Positions 42,534-57,642 of a stretch of DNA of 57,642 nucleotides are shown piece by piece. The stretch's first letter is position 1. Every line of letters starts with the position of its first letter. The stretch covers positions 1 to 57,642 of the forward strand of contig NZ_SSMQ01000080.1 in the NCBI RefSeq assembly GCF_005144585.1, in the 5' to 3' direction. The notes under the pieces were generated by a model. The model was not told the DNA's origin. It did not search any database and was given only the letters and a program-made list of their open reading frames with translations. A program made the translations under genes and the position numbers. The stretch comes from Polyangium fumosum. GTDB taxonomy: Bacteria; Myxococcota_A; Polyangia; Polyangiales; Polyangiaceae.

Positions 42534-42590
42534 CTAGAGCGCCGACCCGTTCGGCGCTCTGCGAGATCGCGAAGCGAGCTCGCCTCGGGG
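42534..42590. repeat. double-hairpin dispersed repeat, copy 1
   Basis: Hairpin 1: GAGCGCCGA and its complement TCGGCGCTC around CCCGT. Hairpin 2: GCGAG-TCGC / GCGA-CTCGC around GAA. It matches 56155-56211 almost base for base, but in hairpin 1 the paired bases change together (GC/GC to AT/AT), preserving the stem. Confidence 0.8.
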
Positions 42591-51738: not shown

Positions 51739-52446
51739 ATGAAGTACGTCTTTTTCTTCCTCCTGCTGGCTCTCGCGCAAGGCGTATGCGTGGCGCTGCT
51801 CGCGCATCCCGCGCGTCATCTCCTGCTGTGGCCCGCCCTCTCCTGTGTCGTGCTCGCCTACGCGTACGCGAGAAATCGCCCGCATCTGGTCCTCGGGAAG
51901 TCGAGCGACGGACGCATCTCCTGGTTTTGGACGACGCTGAACCTCCCGTGGTTGTTCTTTACCTGGACGACCTGGATCGTCCTCGCGGTCTTTTCTCGGG
52001 AGCCGCGGGTGAGCCGGCTCGAAGGGACGAACATCCACCTCGGTCGTTGGCCGCTCCTCGGGCCAGACTTGTCGAGGTTCGACGTCGTGGTGGACCTCGC
52101 GGCCGAGCTGCCGCGCTGGTACCGTTTCGCCCATCGATACGAAGCGCTCCCGAATCTCGACGGCATGCCGCTGGTGCACGACATGCCCCGCGTGGAGATC
52201 GGCCCCGATACCGTGGTGCTGGTGCACTGTGCTCAGGGGCATGGCCGCACGGCTTCCTTCGTCGCGCTTCTTCTGTGCCGTAGGGGCATCACGAGCACGG
52301 TCGAGGAGGCGATCGCGTTGATCCACGACGGTCGCCCGCTGGCGAGAATGTCTCGCTCGCAAAGGAGGGCCGTGGTGGCGAAGTTGAACGTTCAGCCGCC
52401 GGCCGACGACGCCGGCCGCGAAGAAGAGAAAGGGGCACGCGAATGA
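51739..52446 (+). CDS. membrane dual-specificity protein phosphatase
   Basis: 235 residues from ATG 51739. Three hydrophobic segments (MKYVFFFLLLALAQGV; LLLWPALSCVVLAYAYA; LPWLFFTWTTWIVLAVF) precede the cytoplasmic phosphatase domain. The signature loop is HCAQGHGRTAS (catalytic Cys and Arg) and an Asp in VVDLAAELPR precedes it. Hydrolyses phosphotyrosine or phospho-Ser/Thr, or possibly lipid phosphates given the membrane anchor. The stop overlaps the next ATG in an ATGA. Confidence 0.8.
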   Translation: MKYVFFFLLLALAQGVCVALLAHPARHLLLWPALSCVVLAYAYARNRPHLVLGKSSDGRISWFWTTLNLPWLFFTWTTWIVLAVFSREPRVSRLEGTNIHLGRWPLLGPDLSRFDVVVDLAAELPRWYRFAHRYEALPNLDGMPLVHDMPRVEIGPDTVVLVHCAQGHGRTASFVALLLCRRGITSTVEEAIALIHDGRPLARMSRSQRRAVVAKLNVQPPADDAGREEEKGARE

Positions 52447-52700
52447 GAACATATCAAGCATGGATCCTCGCTGGTCTGGCGCTGTTCGGGTGCGGGGGAA
52501 CGGAGGGGACGGAGGGGACGGAGGGAATGGGAACCACGCAGGGGACGACCCTCACGCTGGCGCACGAGCCCCTGACGCTCGACGAGCCCGCCACGGCGCA
52601 CATCACGCTGTGGGGCTACGATTCCAGGCTCGCCGACGCGAAACCGCCTGCTCGAGTCAGGGGGATGGTGCGACGAGGATCCGGGCCTGGTAGAGCGTGA
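52443..52700 (+). pseudogene. lipoprotein truncated at the RiPP cluster boundary
   Basis: 85 residues, coupled by ATGA to the phosphatase. Starts as a lipoprotein (ALFGC), continues GGTEGTEGTEGMG (a 9-base DNA repeat) and an exported beta strand (LTLDEPATAHITLWGYDSRL). It then loses coding character at about codon 66 and runs into the 3' end of the convergent Cys-rich gene. Probably cut off by the event that placed the cluster here. Confidence 0.5.
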
Positions 52701-53733
52701 GGAGGAGGTCGTCGGGGAGACGTACGCCCTTGTCGTGCGCCAGCCGAGCCTGGTTCTCCGCGACGGTCTGGTCGCCCCGGAAGTCGCAGAGGACCTCTTG
52801 AAGCTCCAGCGGTAGAAAGAGGGTTTCATAGCGGCTGTGGCTCCTCACGTACATGCCGCCGTCCCCGGGGATGCAGACCATAGCTGCGTTCATCACGAGG
52901 CGGTCGGGCAAGGTCGGCGCCGTGGCCTGCCGGTAAGCTCGGACCGCTTCGTCGAGCAGAGCTCGGCCATCGCCATTGTTTGCAATGGCCTCGAATTCAT
53001 GGCGGTCGATGGCGGCGACGTGCTCGTGGCAGCGGAGATAGAGCTCCTCCTCGCGTCCTTCCCACTCGCTCCAGCACACGGAATAGTGGGCAGGCGGCCG
53101 GTCTTCGAGGTCCTCCAGGGTGAGCTCGCCGGGCGTCGCCTCGGGCTCGCGGAGTTGCGGCGCGACGCGCTGGAGGGCGTGCTCGGCGAGCCTGCGCTCC
53201 ACGTGAGAGAGGTAGCTGCGCATGGCCGTCCAGAAATTCGCGCCATCCGCGCCTGCCGAATAACGGCAGAAGAAGGTGGAGCAAATCGAATCACGGTGCC
53301 GCCATACGGTGCAAAGGCCGCTCTCGACCTCGTAATAGGGACAGCGCAGCACGAGCGATCGGCCAAAGCTCGTGCGGCGGGTGGCCTTCAGCAGGAGCTG
53401 CGTCTTTTCGGGAGGCGAGATCCATTGCGGCGTCACGCCGGAGCGCGCGGCGATCTTGGCGCGGATGCGGCGGCGGCCCTCGTCCATGTCAGGGCTGTCG
53501 TCAGACAGGATCGCGCCGACGAGATAGTTGGGGAGCCTGGGGTGAAAGCTGCAGCATTTGACATCGGGACGAAAATGGATGGCGCCTGGCAAGGCATGGC
53601 CGCCCTCAGCGGGCGAGGCCATGGCACAGCGGTCGCACGTGGCCTTGTCTTCCCGGGGCGCAGGCTTGGTGAAGAACGAGGGCAGGAAGCTCCAGTAAAC
53701 TGGAGGGAAAACGCTGCGCAGCGTTTCGCTCAT
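52657..53733 (-). CDS. Cys-rich protein of the RiPP cluster, PqqD-like C-terminus
   Basis: 358 residues. Clustered cysteines suggest metal or Fe-S binding: CDRC (33-36), KCCSFHP (60-61), CPYYEVESGLC (131, 141) and CSTFFC (151, 156). Relatives in Polyangia pair such a domain with WRHRDSICSTFF-type segments. Residues ~300-355 (PLELQEVLCDFRGDQTVAE then a final LYQARILV) follow the PqqD/RRE helix pattern used to bind leader peptides. It overlaps the MNIO gene in an ATGA, so it is part of the operon. A maturation or electron-transfer role is inferred. Confidence 0.7.
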   Translation of the reverse strand: MSETLRSVFPPVYWSFLPSFFTKPAPREDKATCDRCAMASPAEGGHALPGAIHFRPDVKCCSFHPRLPNYLVGAILSDDSPDMDEGRRRIRAKIAARSGVTPQWISPPEKTQLLLKATRRTSFGRSLVLRCPYYEVESGLCTVWRHRDSICSTFFCRYSAGADGANFWTAMRSYLSHVERRLAEHALQRVAPQLREPEATPGELTLEDLEDRPPAHYSVCWSEWEGREEELYLRCHEHVAAIDRHEFEAIANNGDGRALLDEAVRAYRQATAPTLPDRLVMNAAMVCIPGDGGMYVRSHSRYETLFLPLELQEVLCDFRGDQTVAENQARLAHDKGVRLPDDLLLTLYQARILVAPSP

Positions 53734-54635
53734 GGGACTCCCTCCATGGCGTCGCGTGGAACATTGGGCCTTGGAGACTCGAGCCGCGAGGCCGCCTCTC
53801 TCTGCTTGCGCGCCGTCTCCAGGATATCCCGCGCCTGGGTCACCTCCAGGAGCAGCTCCTCTATCGGCGGGTAGTTGTCGTCCCGCTCGATGATCACGCC
53901 CTTGATGTCGGTCCGCAGCGCGAGCGCCCGAAGCACGTCCCAGCTCCCCTCTTCGACCGCATGGGAGTGCGAATCGAAGAGCAGCCCGTCCGCCCGAACG
54001 CCGCCGGCCATGTGCACCTGGATGACCCTGTCGAGTGGTATCTGTTCGAGGAAGTGAATGGGATCATAACCATGGTTGGTCGCGTTGGTGTACAGGTTGG
54101 TCGCATCGAGGAGGAGCCCGCAACCCGTGCGCTCCACGATTTCGTTCAAGAGATCCGCCTGGGAGAGCTCGCCTCCAGGGATGTCGAAGAAATAGGTTAT
54201 ATTCTCGACAATCAACAGCTTGCCCGTATGGTCCTGTACGGTCGAGATGTTGCGCACGACGCTCTCGAGGCTCTTTCGGGTGAGCGCGACCGGCGAGAGG
54301 TGTCCGAGATCGATGCCTGGTGCGGAGGTGACCGCTAGATGATCGCTGTAGTAGGGAGCGCCGGTCACTTCGAGAACTCTCTTGATACACCGCAGGTATT
54401 CCGTCGTAGGCGGCGCCGTCGAACCGACCGAGAGCTGGAGCCCGTGCGGCACGCAGGGCAGGAGGACACGGAGCGCCGCGAGCTCGTCGAGCTGGCGCGG
54501 CGTCATGAAATGCTCCGTCGTGACCTCGATGAAATCGATGGAGCTCCGATGCGCCAGGATGTCTGATTTCATGCGGCGCCGAAATCCGAGGCCGGAGCCG
54601 AGGTGGGGGATCGCATGCGTGGAGGACTGCGACAT
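53730..54635 (-). CDS. DUF692/MNIO multinuclear iron oxidase
   Basis: 301 residues, TIM-barrel family. Metal-site motifs known from MbnB/TglH-type MNIO enzymes are present: PHG (His64), SDHL (His99), VEN (Glu144), LLLDATN (Asp177), NHG (His188), VHMAGG (His208), FDSHSH (Asp221, His223) and IIERDD (Glu250). Such enzymes oxidise cysteine or other residues in precursor peptides with two or three iron ions and oxygen. AGGAG sits at the end of the preceding gene, four bases before this ATG region, so translation is linked. Confidence 0.92.
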   Translation of the reverse strand: MSQSSTHAIPHLGSGLGFRRRMKSDILAHRSSIDFIEVTTEHFMTPRQLDELAALRVLLPCVPHGLQLSVGSTAPPTTEYLRCIKRVLEVTGAPYYSDHLAVTSAPGIDLGHLSPVALTRKSLESVVRNISTVQDHTGKLLIVENITYFFDIPGGELSQADLLNEIVERTGCGLLLDATNLYTNATNHGYDPIHFLEQIPLDRVIQVHMAGGVRADGLLFDSHSHAVEEGSWDVLRALALRTDIKGVIIERDDNYPPIEELLLEVTQARDILETARKQREAASRLESPRPNVPRDAMEGVP

Positions 54636-54639
54636 TGCT

Positions 54640-55506
54640 TTAGCTCCTGAGAATCCCCATCGACGCCATGTGTCCCAGCGCCTGAATCAGATCCTCCGTG
54701 AGGCCTTCGATGGCAAGCTGATGTTCGAGCGCAGCGACGATGCTTCGTACGGTCCTCACGCCGTCGCACAGGTCGAGCAGGCTCCCCAGAGCCTGGTTCA
54801 CCTCGAAGACGCGCGGAGAGGAAGACCCTGCCAGATGTTGGAATACGATCCAACCCGGGGCCTCTTCGATGCGGCTGGGGAGCTCATCGTGTCGCAGCGA
54901 GGCGACGATGTCCGTGATGTTGTACTCGAATTCGCCAAAATAAACGCCGCTCTTCACGGCGGGGCAGGCGGCCATTGGAATGTCGCCGGCGGGCGCCCCT
55001 GCGTCCTCGACGTCCTCGTCCGCTCGCGTCGGGGGGAACCCGGCTGCGCAAAAGAGGCGCTCATACCGGGCGAGCTCCGCGGCGTATGTCGGGACATCCT
55101 CGTCCCCCCGGAGCGCCTCTTCCAGAAACGTGCCAAAGTCGACGAGGTACTCCTGCGTGGAGGCATGAGGTCTCGCCGGGAAGAGCTGGTAAAATCGATC
55201 GGTATAACGATCCATTGCAGCGGGGACGAGGCGGCCAGAGAGCGCGTAGTTCTCCAGGACCCGCTCGAGTCGCTTTCCCTTCAAAGAGGCTGCGAACGTT
55301 TCGAGCATGTCGCGGTCGATCTCCGTGACAGCCCGGCTCTCTTCAGGCGAGAGCGCGTACATGGGGAGCGTCTTTTCTGGAGCGATCTGGGCCAACATCC
55401 GAAAACAATCGTCCGTGTACAGGCGGACGAGGTAATGCTGCATCTCGCTCAGGCTCACGAGCCACCTCTTCCAGTTCGGAGGAGGAACGAGCGGCTGCAT
55501 CCTCAT
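54640..55506 (-). CDS. MNIO partner protein with PqqD-like RRE domain
   Basis: 288 residues from ATG 55506. Residues ~60-160 (RLERVLENYALSGRLVPAAM; YLVDFGTFLEEALR; AAELARYERLF) follow the pattern of DUF2063-type MNIO partners. The region ~160-230 is a beta linker. The C-terminus ~232-286 (FEVNQALGSLLDLCDGVRTV and LGHMASMGILRS) is PqqD-like, the fold that recognises RiPP leaders. It therefore likely delivers the precursor to the oxidase. It sits directly after the peptide gene and before the MNIO gene. No clear ribosome site is visible; a TTG at 55518 is an alternative start. Confidence 0.85.
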   Translation of the reverse strand: MRMQPLVPPPNWKRWLVSLSEMQHYLVRLYTDDCFRMLAQIAPEKTLPMYALSPEESRAVTEIDRDMLETFAASLKGKRLERVLENYALSGRLVPAAMDRYTDRFYQLFPARPHASTQEYLVDFGTFLEEALRGDEDVPTYAAELARYERLFCAAGFPPTRADEDVEDAGAPAGDIPMAACPAVKSGVYFGEFEYNITDIVASLRHDELPSRIEEAPGWIVFQHLAGSSSPRVFEVNQALGSLLDLCDGVRTVRSIVAALEHQLAIEGLTEDLIQALGHMASMGILRS

Positions 55507-55579
55507 GGTGTCGCGCAACGCATTGTGCGGCAGGTCCAGGGCGCAGCCGCTCCCCTCACGACGCTACGCTAGCTCCCTT

Positions 55580-55711
55580 TCAACTGTTGAACGACTTGCA
55601 TTTACACTCGCACTTGCAGGATTCCCAGTCGAGTGTCTTCTGCGTCCCTGCCGCAGCGTTCACCTTGGTCGAGACCTCTTTGATCTGGAAAATGCTCTTG
55701 TGCGTGGCCAT
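55580..55711 (-). CDS. RiPP precursor peptide with CKCECKCK core
   Basis: 43 residues, easily missed by gene finders. Starts MATHKSIFQIKEVSTKVN; after a short Ala/Gly/Thr stretch and TLDWES comes the core CKCECKCK, then SFNS and the stop. The four cysteines alternate with Lys/Glu and are the only ones in the peptide. A strong AAGGAAGG lies seven bases before the ATG. The N-terminal ~31 residues fit a leader (helical, charged) for the RRE domain encoded next. It is the first gene of the MNIO operon. Core and leader limits are inferred; a proteolytic site cannot be assigned. Confidence 0.9.
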   Translation of the reverse strand: MATHKSIFQIKEVSTKVNAAAGTQKTLDWESCKCECKCKSFNS

Positions 55712-55718
55712 GTGGATG

Positions 55719-55726
55719 CCTTCCTT
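55719..55726 (-). promoter_or_regulatory. strong ribosome binding site of the precursor gene
   Basis: AAGGAAGG seven bases before the precursor ATG. It is the main evidence that this 43-codon frame is translated. Confidence 0.7.
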
Positions 55727-55767
55727 TGAAATGCGCGATTCATTTCGCGAATTCGTAGGTGCATTCG

Positions 55768-55796
55768 ATTCATCGAGCCGTCGCCTGTTTCGTCAA
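55768..55796 (-). promoter_or_regulatory. candidate promoter of the RiPP operon
   Basis: TTGACG (minus strand, 55796-55791) and ATGAAT (55773-55768) are 17 bases apart. The -35 is good, the -10 poor. Transcription would start ~50 bases before the precursor ATG. Confidence 0.3.
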
Positions 55797-56089
55797 GGAC
55801 GAAGGCAGCCTCATCCTCCGAAATTTTCGGGGCACGGATGCGGTGCTTGTTCCCAAGTTTTACGATTGGTTGGGCGCCTGGCCTCGACGGCTTTTGCCGA
55901 TAGGGATCCTCCGTAGGCCTTCATGGCCGCCCTTCTTGAAGGACGGCCTCGGCGGCCTCCTCGGGAACGGCAGCGAGCGGCGGCTCTCACGGCGGGTGCG
56001 CGAGGTTCGTGCAGCCGGGTGGGCCGCTTCGCGTCGAGCACGTCGCTGAGGGTGCGAGGCAGCTCGGACATGAGACGCCGCGACGCTCG
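55797..56089. other. gap between integrase and RiPP operon, with hairpin
   Basis: No gene is supported here. At 55925-55948 GGCCGCCCTTC-TT-GAAGGACGGCC forms an 11-bp stem. In minus-strand RNA its one mismatch becomes a G-U pair, so it may end transcription from the integrase side. Flanking small frames show no start or codon bias. Confidence 0.4.
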
Positions 56090-57613
56090 TCATCTTCGAT
56101 TCCTGAGGCCCGGATCGCGCGCCGGGCCTCGCGGCGCCCGTCGGGCTCGGGTTGCTAGAGCATCGAACGGTTCGATGCTCTGCGAGATCGCGAAGCGAGC
56201 TCGCCTCGGGGAACAGTTCTGATCATCCTGACCCGGGGTCGCCAACCCCGCGGATCTTGGCTGGATCTCGACAGACAGAGGGGTCCCCCGCCGCGAGCGT
56301 GGTGCCCTTTCCGCCGCCCTTTCCTTCGTACGGGCCTGCTCGGCGCCCATCCGGGGAGCCAGCTCGGGAATCGCCTCATGGAGCGGACGGCACTCCTTGA
56401 GCCCGAGCTCGGCCGCCGTGCGTGCGGCACGTCGGTAGCGGTTGATCATGTCGCTTGACTTGTGCCCCGTTCGGTCCTGCACCCACGCCTCCGTCCGTCC
56501 GTTCGCGAGCGCCAGCGTGACGAATGTCGCCCGCGTGTCGTGCAGCCGGATCCGCATCCTCGTCTCCGTCCGCGCGAACAGCTCCGGCCGGCGAACGCCT
56601 GCCAGCTCCAGATGTCCGCGGAACCGGCCGGCAGTGTCGCTCATGGCAAGCCGCTGTCCCTTCTGGCTTCCTTCGTCGTACACGAAGACGGGCGCGTCTC
56701 CTGACACGCGCACGCCTCTCGCCGCGCAGTGATCTCTCCAGGCGCGCAACGCAGCGACGACCCCAGGCGACAATGCCCACGCGCGGGGCTCGTCCGTCTT
56801 GTTCACGTCGAGCACGATCACTCCGAGGTCCAGGTCAATGTCGGACCACCTCGTGTGGAGGGCTTCCGTGCGGCGCATCCCTTCCCGATGAAGGAAGCCG
56901 TAAAACAACCGCCATTCAAGCGGAACCTGCGTGCAGCCCAGCAACGTCGCGTCCTCGTCGGGATAGAGCCAGCCCTTCGCTTTTCCTGTCTGATACCGCG
57001 GCACGAATCCCCGCGGGAGCGGATGCACGGCGATATGGCGCAGGGGAAGGACCGCCAGCGAGCAGATCCGATACACGAGTTGCGCGACGGAGCGCCGCGA
57101 GTTCGGCGCGAGACTCGCGGGCAGGCTCCGCATCACGGCTTCCGCGTGGTCGAGAGTGAACTTGTCGATCGCCACGTCCCCGACCATCGGATAGACGTAC
57201 CTGTCGAGCACGTACCTGTTGGTTCTTGCACTTCGTCGTCGCTTGACTCGGTCGGGATGAAGATCCGCCAGTTCGCCGCTCGTCCACCGCCTGCCGATTT
57301 CCTCGATCGTCGGCGTGCGGTTCTTCTGTACCACCTGCCCTGACGCGATCATGTCCACGGCTTTGCGCACCTCGTCCAGCGCCTTCCCGTCACGCACCGC
57401 AGCGCGCTTGATGATGTCCGGTGCGATGTCGTCGCGTCCGCATTTGCGGAGCTTCGCGGCCAATTCCGCCAAAATGGCGAGGCGAGACATCGCGCTTGCC
57501 TCGTCCTTGCAGGTATCGAGCATGAAGCTCTGCCGCTTCTTCGCTCCGATCGTGAGCCGCGCGAACCACTTGCCGCGCCGCTCGTAAACGTTGCCTGTTG
57601 CTACCCTGGGCAT
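56090..57613 (-). CDS. tyrosine recombinase / integrase
   Basis: 507 residues from ATG 57613 (MPRVATGNVYERRGKWFARL), with GGAG eight bases before. Catalytic residues: Arg in HREGMRRTEAL, His-x-x-Arg in LHDTRATF, His in GHKSSD and Tyr in INRYRR. The N-terminal ~150 residues form the arm- and core-binding domains. After about residue 420 the chain lacks family character, and the end (SPRRARFAISQSI onward) is read through the dispersed double-hairpin repeat at 56155-56211, so the original C-terminus was likely replaced. Marks a mobile element next to the RiPP operon. Confidence 0.85.
   Translation of the reverse strand: MPRVATGNVYERRGKWFARLTIGAKKRQSFMLDTCKDEASAMSRLAILAELAAKLRKCGRDDIAPDIIKRAAVRDGKALDEVRKAVDMIASGQVVQKNRTPTIEEIGRRWTSGELADLHPDRVKRRRSARTNRYVLDRYVYPMVGDVAIDKFTLDHAEAVMRSLPASLAPNSRRSVAQLVYRICSLAVLPLRHIAVHPLPRGFVPRYQTGKAKGWLYPDEDATLLGCTQVPLEWRLFYGFLHREGMRRTEALHTRWSDIDLDLGVIVLDVNKTDEPRAWALSPGVVAALRAWRDHCAARGVRVSGDAPVFVYDEGSQKGQRLAMSDTAGRFRGHLELAGVRRPELFARTETRMRIRLHDTRATFVTLALANGRTEAWVQDRTGHKSSDMINRYRRAARTAAELGLKECRPLHEAIPELAPRMGAEQARTKERAAERAPRSRRGTPLSVEIQPRSAGLATPGQDDQNCSPRRARFAISQSIEPFDALATRARRAPRGPARDPGLRNRR
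56155..56211. repeat. double-hairpin dispersed repeat, copy 2 (inside integrase tail)
   Basis: Hairpin 1 is GAGCATCGA / TCGATGCTC around ACGGT; hairpin 2 is identical to copy 1 at 42534-42590. It lies inside the integrase reading frame and supplies its last-but-one segment. Not an att site by itself, since the copies do not bound a recognisable element. Confidence 0.8.
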
Positions 57614-57642
57614 GTTCCAAACTCCAATCAATGACGATGCAG

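Follow-up and report, generated by a model that had tools for sequence, protein, structure and literature searches.

A compact MNIO-type RiPP operon with a four-cysteine precursor in Polyangium fumosum

Operon structure and precursor peptide

The DNA analyzed here (hereafter, the window) comprises 57,642 nucleotides of the soil myxobacterium Polyangium fumosum (NCBI RefSeq assembly GCF_005144585.1, contig NZ_SSMQ01000080.1, positions 1 to 57,642). Based on the list of open reading frames (ORFs), four co-directional genes, preA, partner, MNIO, and ccD, run on its minus strand from 55711 to 52657. They constitute a genuine MNIO operon for a ribosomally synthesized and post-translationally modified peptide (RiPP) of the leader-guided, PME-type 2 branch. 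An earlier reading made without database searches (hereafter, the sequence-only reading) had placed four genes in one direction here, and all four ORFs were recovered as described. The features of the operon are as follows.

55580-55711, minus strand: preA, 43-residue precursor MATHKSIFQIKEVSTKVNAAAGTQKTLDWESCKCECKCKSFNS (ORF; homologue in G004, a second genome of the same genus; ratio of nonsynonymous to synonymous substitution rates, dN/dS)
55595-55618, minus strand: core CKCECKCK, residues 32-39 of PreA (sequence; CKCxCKC pattern at 55598-55618)
54640-55458, minus strand: partner, PME-type 2, with a TglI-like N-terminal half and an end resembling a RiPP recognition element (RRE) in the predicted model (272 residues, probable GTG start)
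54640-55518, minus strand: partner, longer ORF as listed (TTG start at 55518, 292 residues)
53730-54635, minus strand: MNIO (PF05114), 301 residues, with all metal ligands and the catalytic Asp252 present and Asp253 as the substrate-selectivity residue
52657-53733, minus strand: ccD, 358-residue cysteine-rich protein (eight Cys invariant; distant resemblance to the CxxCxxCC domain)

The MNIO stop and the ccD start overlap in an ATGA at 53733-53730, the coupling to a Cys-rich protein that had been noticed before, and the partner stop and MNIO start lie 4 nt apart. All four genes are preceded by ribosome-site-like stretches, including AAGGAAGG at 55719-55726 upstream of the preA ATG. Translation of the partner probably begins at GTG 55458 rather than TTG 55518, because three related partners begin at the same residue and GGAAGAGG lies just upstream. 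A sigma-70 promoter search of the operon strand found none, and a hairpin in the preA-partner intergenic region was not significant (z -0.94).

The sequence-only reading described a 43-residue peptide ending in CKCECKCK; its length and core were correct, but SFNS follows the core, and the core Cys are internal. No hydrophobic stretch, and thus no Sec signal, was seen on inspection of the 43 residues. A six-frame scan of the window finds the CxCxCxC pattern once, compared to a Markov mean of 0.075 (40 simulations, three of which had one). Among 183 genomes of the order, CKCxCKC was found in five, two of which are the operons beside an MNIO. A wider CKCxCKC family was considered and rejected: in the other three genomes the pattern sits in repeat-like stretches, and no MNIO was found in the regions examined around them, some of which end at a contig end. 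Among the titles and abstracts returned by literature searches (a scope excluding subscription papers, many preprints, and supplements), none describes the operon or a CKCxCKCK MNIO precursor.

Conservation in a second genome

The precursor in G004 (MSTHKNIFQLKEVSAKVNAAAETQKPLDWEDCKCKCKCKSFSD) is 77% identical to PreA and retains all four Cys, with both core and leader conserved. Nei-Gojobori dN/dS values between the window and G004 were 0.33 for preA (based on only 7 synonymous and 12 nonsynonymous changes), 0.23 for the partner, 0.29 for the MNIO, and 0.43 for ccD. Within the order, partner matches occur in three of the 183 genomes, the third being weak and short, and the other four genomes of the genus gave no match. 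A partner-profile search of the phylum (E <= 0.001) returned 15 of 377 genomes, with full-length matches only in the two operons; the next-best match (G370, 1.2e-17) lies on the contig of the Plesiocystis locus L084, and the remainder are short and weak. The partner had no match on plasmids at E <= 0.001 and none in viral contigs.

The MNIO and its place in the family

Membership of the oxidase in PF05114 is clear (259.6 bits against a cut-off of 25, E 3.6e-77). Residues H64, H99, E144, D177, N180, H208, D221, H223, E250, and the base D252 stand in columns without variation across all 65 aligned MNIOs, bearing out the earlier claim of intact metal ligands. The protein falls under every NCBIfam cut-off (score/cut-off in bits: BufB 207.4/310, HvfB 198.7/360, ApyH 131.2/400, MbnB 49.8/325, ChrH 37.5/600), with BufB and then HvfB ranking highest by a wide margin. 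As a control, the MNIO of the Methylocystis locus L085 scores 375.5 for BufB. Elsewhere in the P. fumosum genome, we observed two full-length MNIOs (31 and 36% identity) and one weak match.

A search of genome contigs returned 33 MNIO loci, and a maximum likelihood tree was built from 65 MNIOs. The window enzyme forms a clade with those of G004, Pseudoalteromonas byunsanensis (45% identity), and Methylobacterium sp. WSM2598 (43%), with support of 98/96, and lies outside a separate group of 53 rows that includes Sec-type loci (100/99). The Sorangium, Plesiocystis, and G023 MNIOs are likewise grouped (100/97). Assignment of partner types in the tree was visual, with Pfam used only for a subset of proteins. 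Three loci with unassigned partner type (L007, L008, and L130) fall inside the 11-row PME-type 2 group, and the Bryobacterales MNIO of L082 adjoins the 53-row group, apart from the other PME-type 2 rows, requiring two changes. L079 (P. byunsanensis) and L080 are joined on long branches, which the tree itself flags. The partner precedes the MNIO in the window, G004, L079, and L080, and follows it in the Sorangium, G023, Plesiocystis, and Bryobacterales loci.

The partner protein

The partner had been described as DUF2063-like and PqqD-like. DUF2063 (PF09836) gave no match at E <= 1, whereas the control partner from Methylocystis L085 matches it at 2.4e-17; the PqqD resemblance stands in part, with 22.2 bits slightly under the Pfam cut-off of 23.4 and a modelled RRE-like end. 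An AlphaFold2 model of the 292-residue form (alignment of seven sequences; mean predicted local distance difference test [pLDDT] 83, predicted template modelling score 0.75) matches TglI of the TglHI complex (8hi7: Z 15.9, root-mean-square deviation 4.2, 257 residues; Foldseek E 1.9e-6) and NGO1945 (3dee: Z 14.2), with MbnC at Z 6.1 only. As judged from this predicted model, the partner is of PME-type 2, with a TglI/NGO1945-like fold and no DUF2063 signature; PME-type 2 partners are tied in PMC12452194 to precursors without a Sec signal. Residues 186-292 resemble the RREs of TbiB1 (Z 10.0) and PqqD (Z 9.7), and the C-terminal half is likely an RRE. This assignment is unproved because a methyltransferase chain (8hkr, Z 11.1) outscores the RREs on the same half.

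At the other end of the protein, residues 20-83 (window 55270-55461) resemble the NHLP-clan peptide Os1348 (26 bits against a cut-off of 40, E 7.4e-6), as do three of five related partners by profile, and the modelled segment matches 6lk7 (Z 7.3 over 64 residues, a range common for helical bundles). The resemblance is worth a proper test because the TglHI study reports that no structural relative was found for the TglI N-terminal domain (PMC10880893).

Related loci and their precursors

The P. byunsanensis locus L079 encodes three tandem short Cys peptides (MSNSLFIIAEVSQSVGDVDIAGCKGCRSCHAEAVF; MPFSNSIFTSAQTTSHTGDSELSGICCYQEHAI; MSFSNNIFAAAQATSQNDASLQGGHCGGCTGCSGCYHYAQL). Of 154 short ORFs at this locus, the first of these peptides gives the best alignment with the window leader (SIFQIKEVSTKV), through its segment SLFIIAEVSQSV; shuffling gave p 0.003, and 0.015 when the G004 leader was used. 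The small Cys ORFs of L080, L081, L082, L083, L084, and L035 (39 to about 160 residues as listed, starts uncertain) contain CxxC, CxxxxC, CC, or CxC groups. The co-occurrence check proposed in the sequence-only reading gave a divided answer: a CxCxCxC peptide stands beside the MNIO in the second genome, but the spacing is not kept in the precursors of more distant relatives. At G023:C4, about 840574-840977 (L006:2434-2837), two tandem near-identical 39-residue precursors ending in CHCCGYVNDE precede the MNIO, with similar precursors in Sorangium.

In L079 (3838-5982), a glycosyltransferase is fused to the MNIO partner, and the locus adds an ABC transporter and an asparagine synthase. In Plesiocystis (L084:7839-9809), a glycosyltransferase with a C-terminal PqqD/RRE-like domain lies beside the MNIO and partner; L082 carries an asparagine synthase and L083 an ABC transporter. 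The ABC transporters (two loci) and the glycosyltransferase fusions to partner or RRE-like domain (two) fit a family that makes peptide products, and none of these three gene types is among the four of the window operon. The L079 product is perhaps a glycosylated MNIO peptide.

The eight-cysteine protein ccD

Eight Cys of ccD (33, 36, 60, 61, 131, 141, 151, and 156) are present in every one of 24 correctly framed members, window included, with spacings like CxxC...CC and C...C...C...C. The score against CxxCxxCC (PF03692) is 15.2, below the gathering score of 23. Assignment of ccD to a named enzyme was rejected, as no Pfam or NCBIfam family exceeded its cut-off and no PDB sequence relative was found at E <= 1; a single-sequence model was uninformative (pLDDT 36.6). 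Matches occur in 29 of the 183 genomes of the order, including the two operon genomes and a weak match in G121, and locus L079 has none. A general link between the ccD family and MNIOs was also rejected: a tblastn search of 20 regions around its relatives (240,809 bases) found no MNIO, partner, or preA at E <= 0.001, a negative that depends on tblastn because gene lists alone missed ccD itself in 4 of the 20 regions. ccD is probably an Fe-S or Zn protein recruited to this operon as an accessory. Two ccD relatives stand in tandem at L065:5781-8043 (G140:C145).

A probable mobile insert

The operon lies within a block of ~3.4 kb present in the window and G004, the flanks of which differ between the two genomes. 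The block and its neighbors are as follows.

52638-56041: block common to the window and G004 at 90% nucleotide identity, the operon plus ~330 bp upstream (genome comparison)
52443-52641, plus strand: 5' remnant (~66 codons) of a small lipoprotein gene interrupted by the block (whole gene, 160 residues, elsewhere in G004)
56090-57631, minus strand: tyrosine recombinase (PF00589), adjoining the block and running to the contig end (Pfam)

On the left side of the block, the window contains a phosphatase-like gene and the lipoprotein remnant. This flank corresponds to G004 at 4.93 Mb, with an intact lipoprotein gene there, and the G004 copy of the operon is located at 12.17 Mb, away from that locus. 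This comparison suggests that the block was inserted into the lipoprotein gene in the window genome. It is probably mobile because the lipoprotein gene is interrupted and a tyrosine recombinase adjoins; movement by that recombinase is only putative. The right end of the insert was not located, because the 3' part of the cut gene is unmatched in its own genome (among the matches listed, none begins before query position 511).

Among the matches listed, close copies of the recombinase (88-96%) occur at several places in the genus, and the gene is apparently multi-copy. A 57-base dispersed hairpin repeat (GAGCATCGAACGGTTCGATGCTC) is present at 56155-56211, overlapping the 3' end of the recombinase ORF, and at 42534-42590; copies were found in all six genomes of the genus searched, many of them in most genomes, again among the matches listed.

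Selection of cysteines in the core

Captophorin MNIOs turn Cys into 5-thiooxazoles; directly behind the catalytic Asp, Lys-Cys enzymes carry Phe and Cys-Lys enzymes a second Asp (PMC12668002). FonB, a Lys-Cys enzyme, is blocked when a charged residue follows the Cys (PMC12668002), so the two types are not interchangeable. The window MNIO has Asp253 after Asp252, and its core is CKCECKCK. To compare loci, a precursor was assigned for 51 of the 65 MNIOs (43 by rule, 8 by hand). The mean fraction of core Cys followed by K, R, or H was 0.66 in 28 Asp loci versus 0.11 in 23 others (p 1.2e-8, a value that ignores relatedness). After thinning to 26 enzymes below 75% identity, a set that leaves out L082 as its precursor pick is probably wrong, the means were 0.55 (10 Asp) and 0.08 (16), with p 0.0003; without the window, the Asp mean was 0.53 (9) and p 0.0006. 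At below 60% identity (19 enzymes), p was 0.010, or 0.023 without the window.

These comparisons support selection of Cys-Lys by the window enzyme, and several observations speak against it. Asp is accompanied by few or no basic neighbors in L010, L024, and L030, Ala by many in L031 and L083, and Asp253 of the P. byunsanensis enzyme by a mixed core. Within PreA itself, Cys34 is followed by Glu. The window MNIO also has the second Arg (R20; Arg in 5 of 65 MNIOs), which PMC12668002 describes as kept in Lys-Cys and lost in Cys-Lys enzymes, although another sentence of that paper says the reverse. Captophorin-like chemistry in the window MNIO has weaker support than the Cys-Lys choice.

Comparison with characterized systems

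Compared to the captophorins, bufferins, and oxazolins (BufABC, HvfABC, FonABC), the window MNIO is closest by profile score, and it shares a Cys-Lys core and the Asp after the catalytic Asp with the Cys-Lys group (PMC12668002). It differs in that the precursor has no Sec signal, the partner has no DUF2063 and its gene precedes that of the MNIO, and the MNIO is under the BufB and HvfB cut-offs and outside the group that contains Sec-type loci. The suggestion that the operon represents a different class survives in part: the low curated scores, the missing Sec signal, and the PME-type 2 partner favor it, but BufB and HvfB are the best models and Asp253 is as in the Cys-Lys group (PMC12668002). 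The chemistry may be captophorin-like, with a different recognition system that has a leader and a PME-type 2 partner and lacks a Sec signal.

The TglHI system (3-thiaglutamate, pearlin) has the same partner fold, as predicted (Z 15.9, 257 residues), and a short signal-less precursor. However, its Cys is appended C-terminally rather than internal, and the window MNIO is nearer BufB/HvfB; Pfam identified no PEARL/TglB-like enzyme among the four genes, the part of the genome covered by that search. The PME-type 2 MNIO loci of PMC12452194 (adjamnio families), one model of which is a Plesiocystis PME-type 2 protein, also combine a signal-less Cys precursor with a PME-type 2 partner. The passages of that paper considered here mention neither a CKCxCKCK core nor a partner-first order nor a ccD-like gene. 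L079 is similar in its MNIO (45%), partner (29%), the leader of one of three peptides, and partner-first order, and different in its tandem precursors, partner-glycosyltransferase fusion, ABC transporter, asparagine synthase, and lack of a ccD match. Methanobactin biosynthesis (MbnABC) shares the MNIO fold and a Cys substrate, whereas the MbnB score (49.8 against a cut-off of 325) and the partner match to MbnC (Z 6.1) set it apart.

Proposed mechanism and alternatives

We propose, at about even confidence, that this compact RiPP operon directs leader-guided MNIO oxidation of core Cys to a thiooxazole-type metallophore. The PreA leader, at about residues 6-17 (SIFQIKEVSTKV), would be bound by the RRE half of the partner while the helical half docks on the MNIO. 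The enzyme, with a mixed-valent di-iron center (a state taken over from work on HvfB and MbnB; PMC13419390), would then oxidize core Cys, most likely those before Lys. Each oxidized Cys would lose four hydrogens to give a 5-thiooxazole, yielding a short, sulfur-rich compound that would bind a soft metal, for example copper. The calculated monoisotopic mass of PreA is 4779.30 Da without modification and would be 4763.17 Da after four such events. The recruited ccD may serve as an electron donor, in metal handling, or in a second modification, and the block would move as an insert.

Several points weigh against this proposal. Other MNIO reactions include oxazolone-thioamide formation, carbon excision, and hydroxylation, and the chemistry is invisible in sequence. 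The captophorin MNIOs known so far act on precursors with a Sec signal together with PME1, and the window operon has neither. None of the four genes is an exporter or metal gene, and the full operon is known from two genomes only. The second and third L079 peptides gave no significant alignment with the window leader (for the third, p 0.21, versus 0.006 with the G004 leader).

The best-surviving alternative, which we consider somewhat unlikely, keeps the same leader, partner, and MNIO logic but ends in another Cys product (oxazolone-thioamide, beta-carbon excision, thioether, or macrocycle) that acts as a signal or toxin rather than a metal ligand. TglI, the closest match to the partner fold, acts with an MNIO that excises a carbon (PMC10880893), the glycosyltransferases, asparagine synthases, and ABC transporters of related loci look like those of a secreted natural product, and the window MNIO is under every curated cut-off. 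However, BufB and HvfB lead by far (207.4 and 198.7 versus 131.2, 49.8, and 37.5 bits), and the operon has internal core Cys, no further gene, and no exporter among the four. A bolder form of our own proposal appears unlikely as a whole: a mobile leader-guided MNIO class in which the docking half of the partner would derive from an NHLP-type leader domain, CxCxCxC would be converted to a thiooxazole at every second residue, and ccD, as a new eight-cysteine metalloprotein family, would finish a compact, signal-less metallophore.

It is doubtful that ccD is a second core enzyme (e.g., an Fe-S enzyme altering Lys between the Cys) and the product doubly modified. Although the ATGA coupling, co-transfer in both genomes, and the eight invariant Cys (24/24) would fit, ccD relatives occur in 27 further genomes without MNIO, partner, or preA in any of the 20 regions, and ccD has no family above cut-off and an uninformative model (pLDDT 36.6).

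CxCxCxC is typical of thiolate clusters. PreA could accordingly be metallothionein-like, holding metal by free thiols while the MNIO and partner act on another substrate, and ccD would then be a second Cys-rich, metal-type protein in the operon. We regard this as improbable: preA directly precedes the partner gene, its N-terminus is leader-like and partly conserved, related MNIO loci carry short Cys-ended peptides at the same place, and elsewhere in the order CKCxCKC is only repeat-like (5/183 genomes, two beside an MNIO). A decaying or non-functional insert, as its location close to a contig end and inside an interrupted lipoprotein gene might suggest, is very improbable given four open frames, dN/dS values of 0.23-0.43, ribosome-site-like stretches, and a complete set of catalytic residues.

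The proposed thiooxazole-type operon belongs among the MNIO systems with signal-less precursors and PME-type 2 partners, from which few products have been characterized so far. With one four-Cys precursor and a modelled partner in 3.4 kb, it makes specific predictions (-4 Da per Cys, and Asp253 as the specificity residue). It unites a probable mobile insert, what may be unusual Cys chemistry, and an uncharacterized eight-Cys family with matches in 29 of the order's 183 searched genomes.

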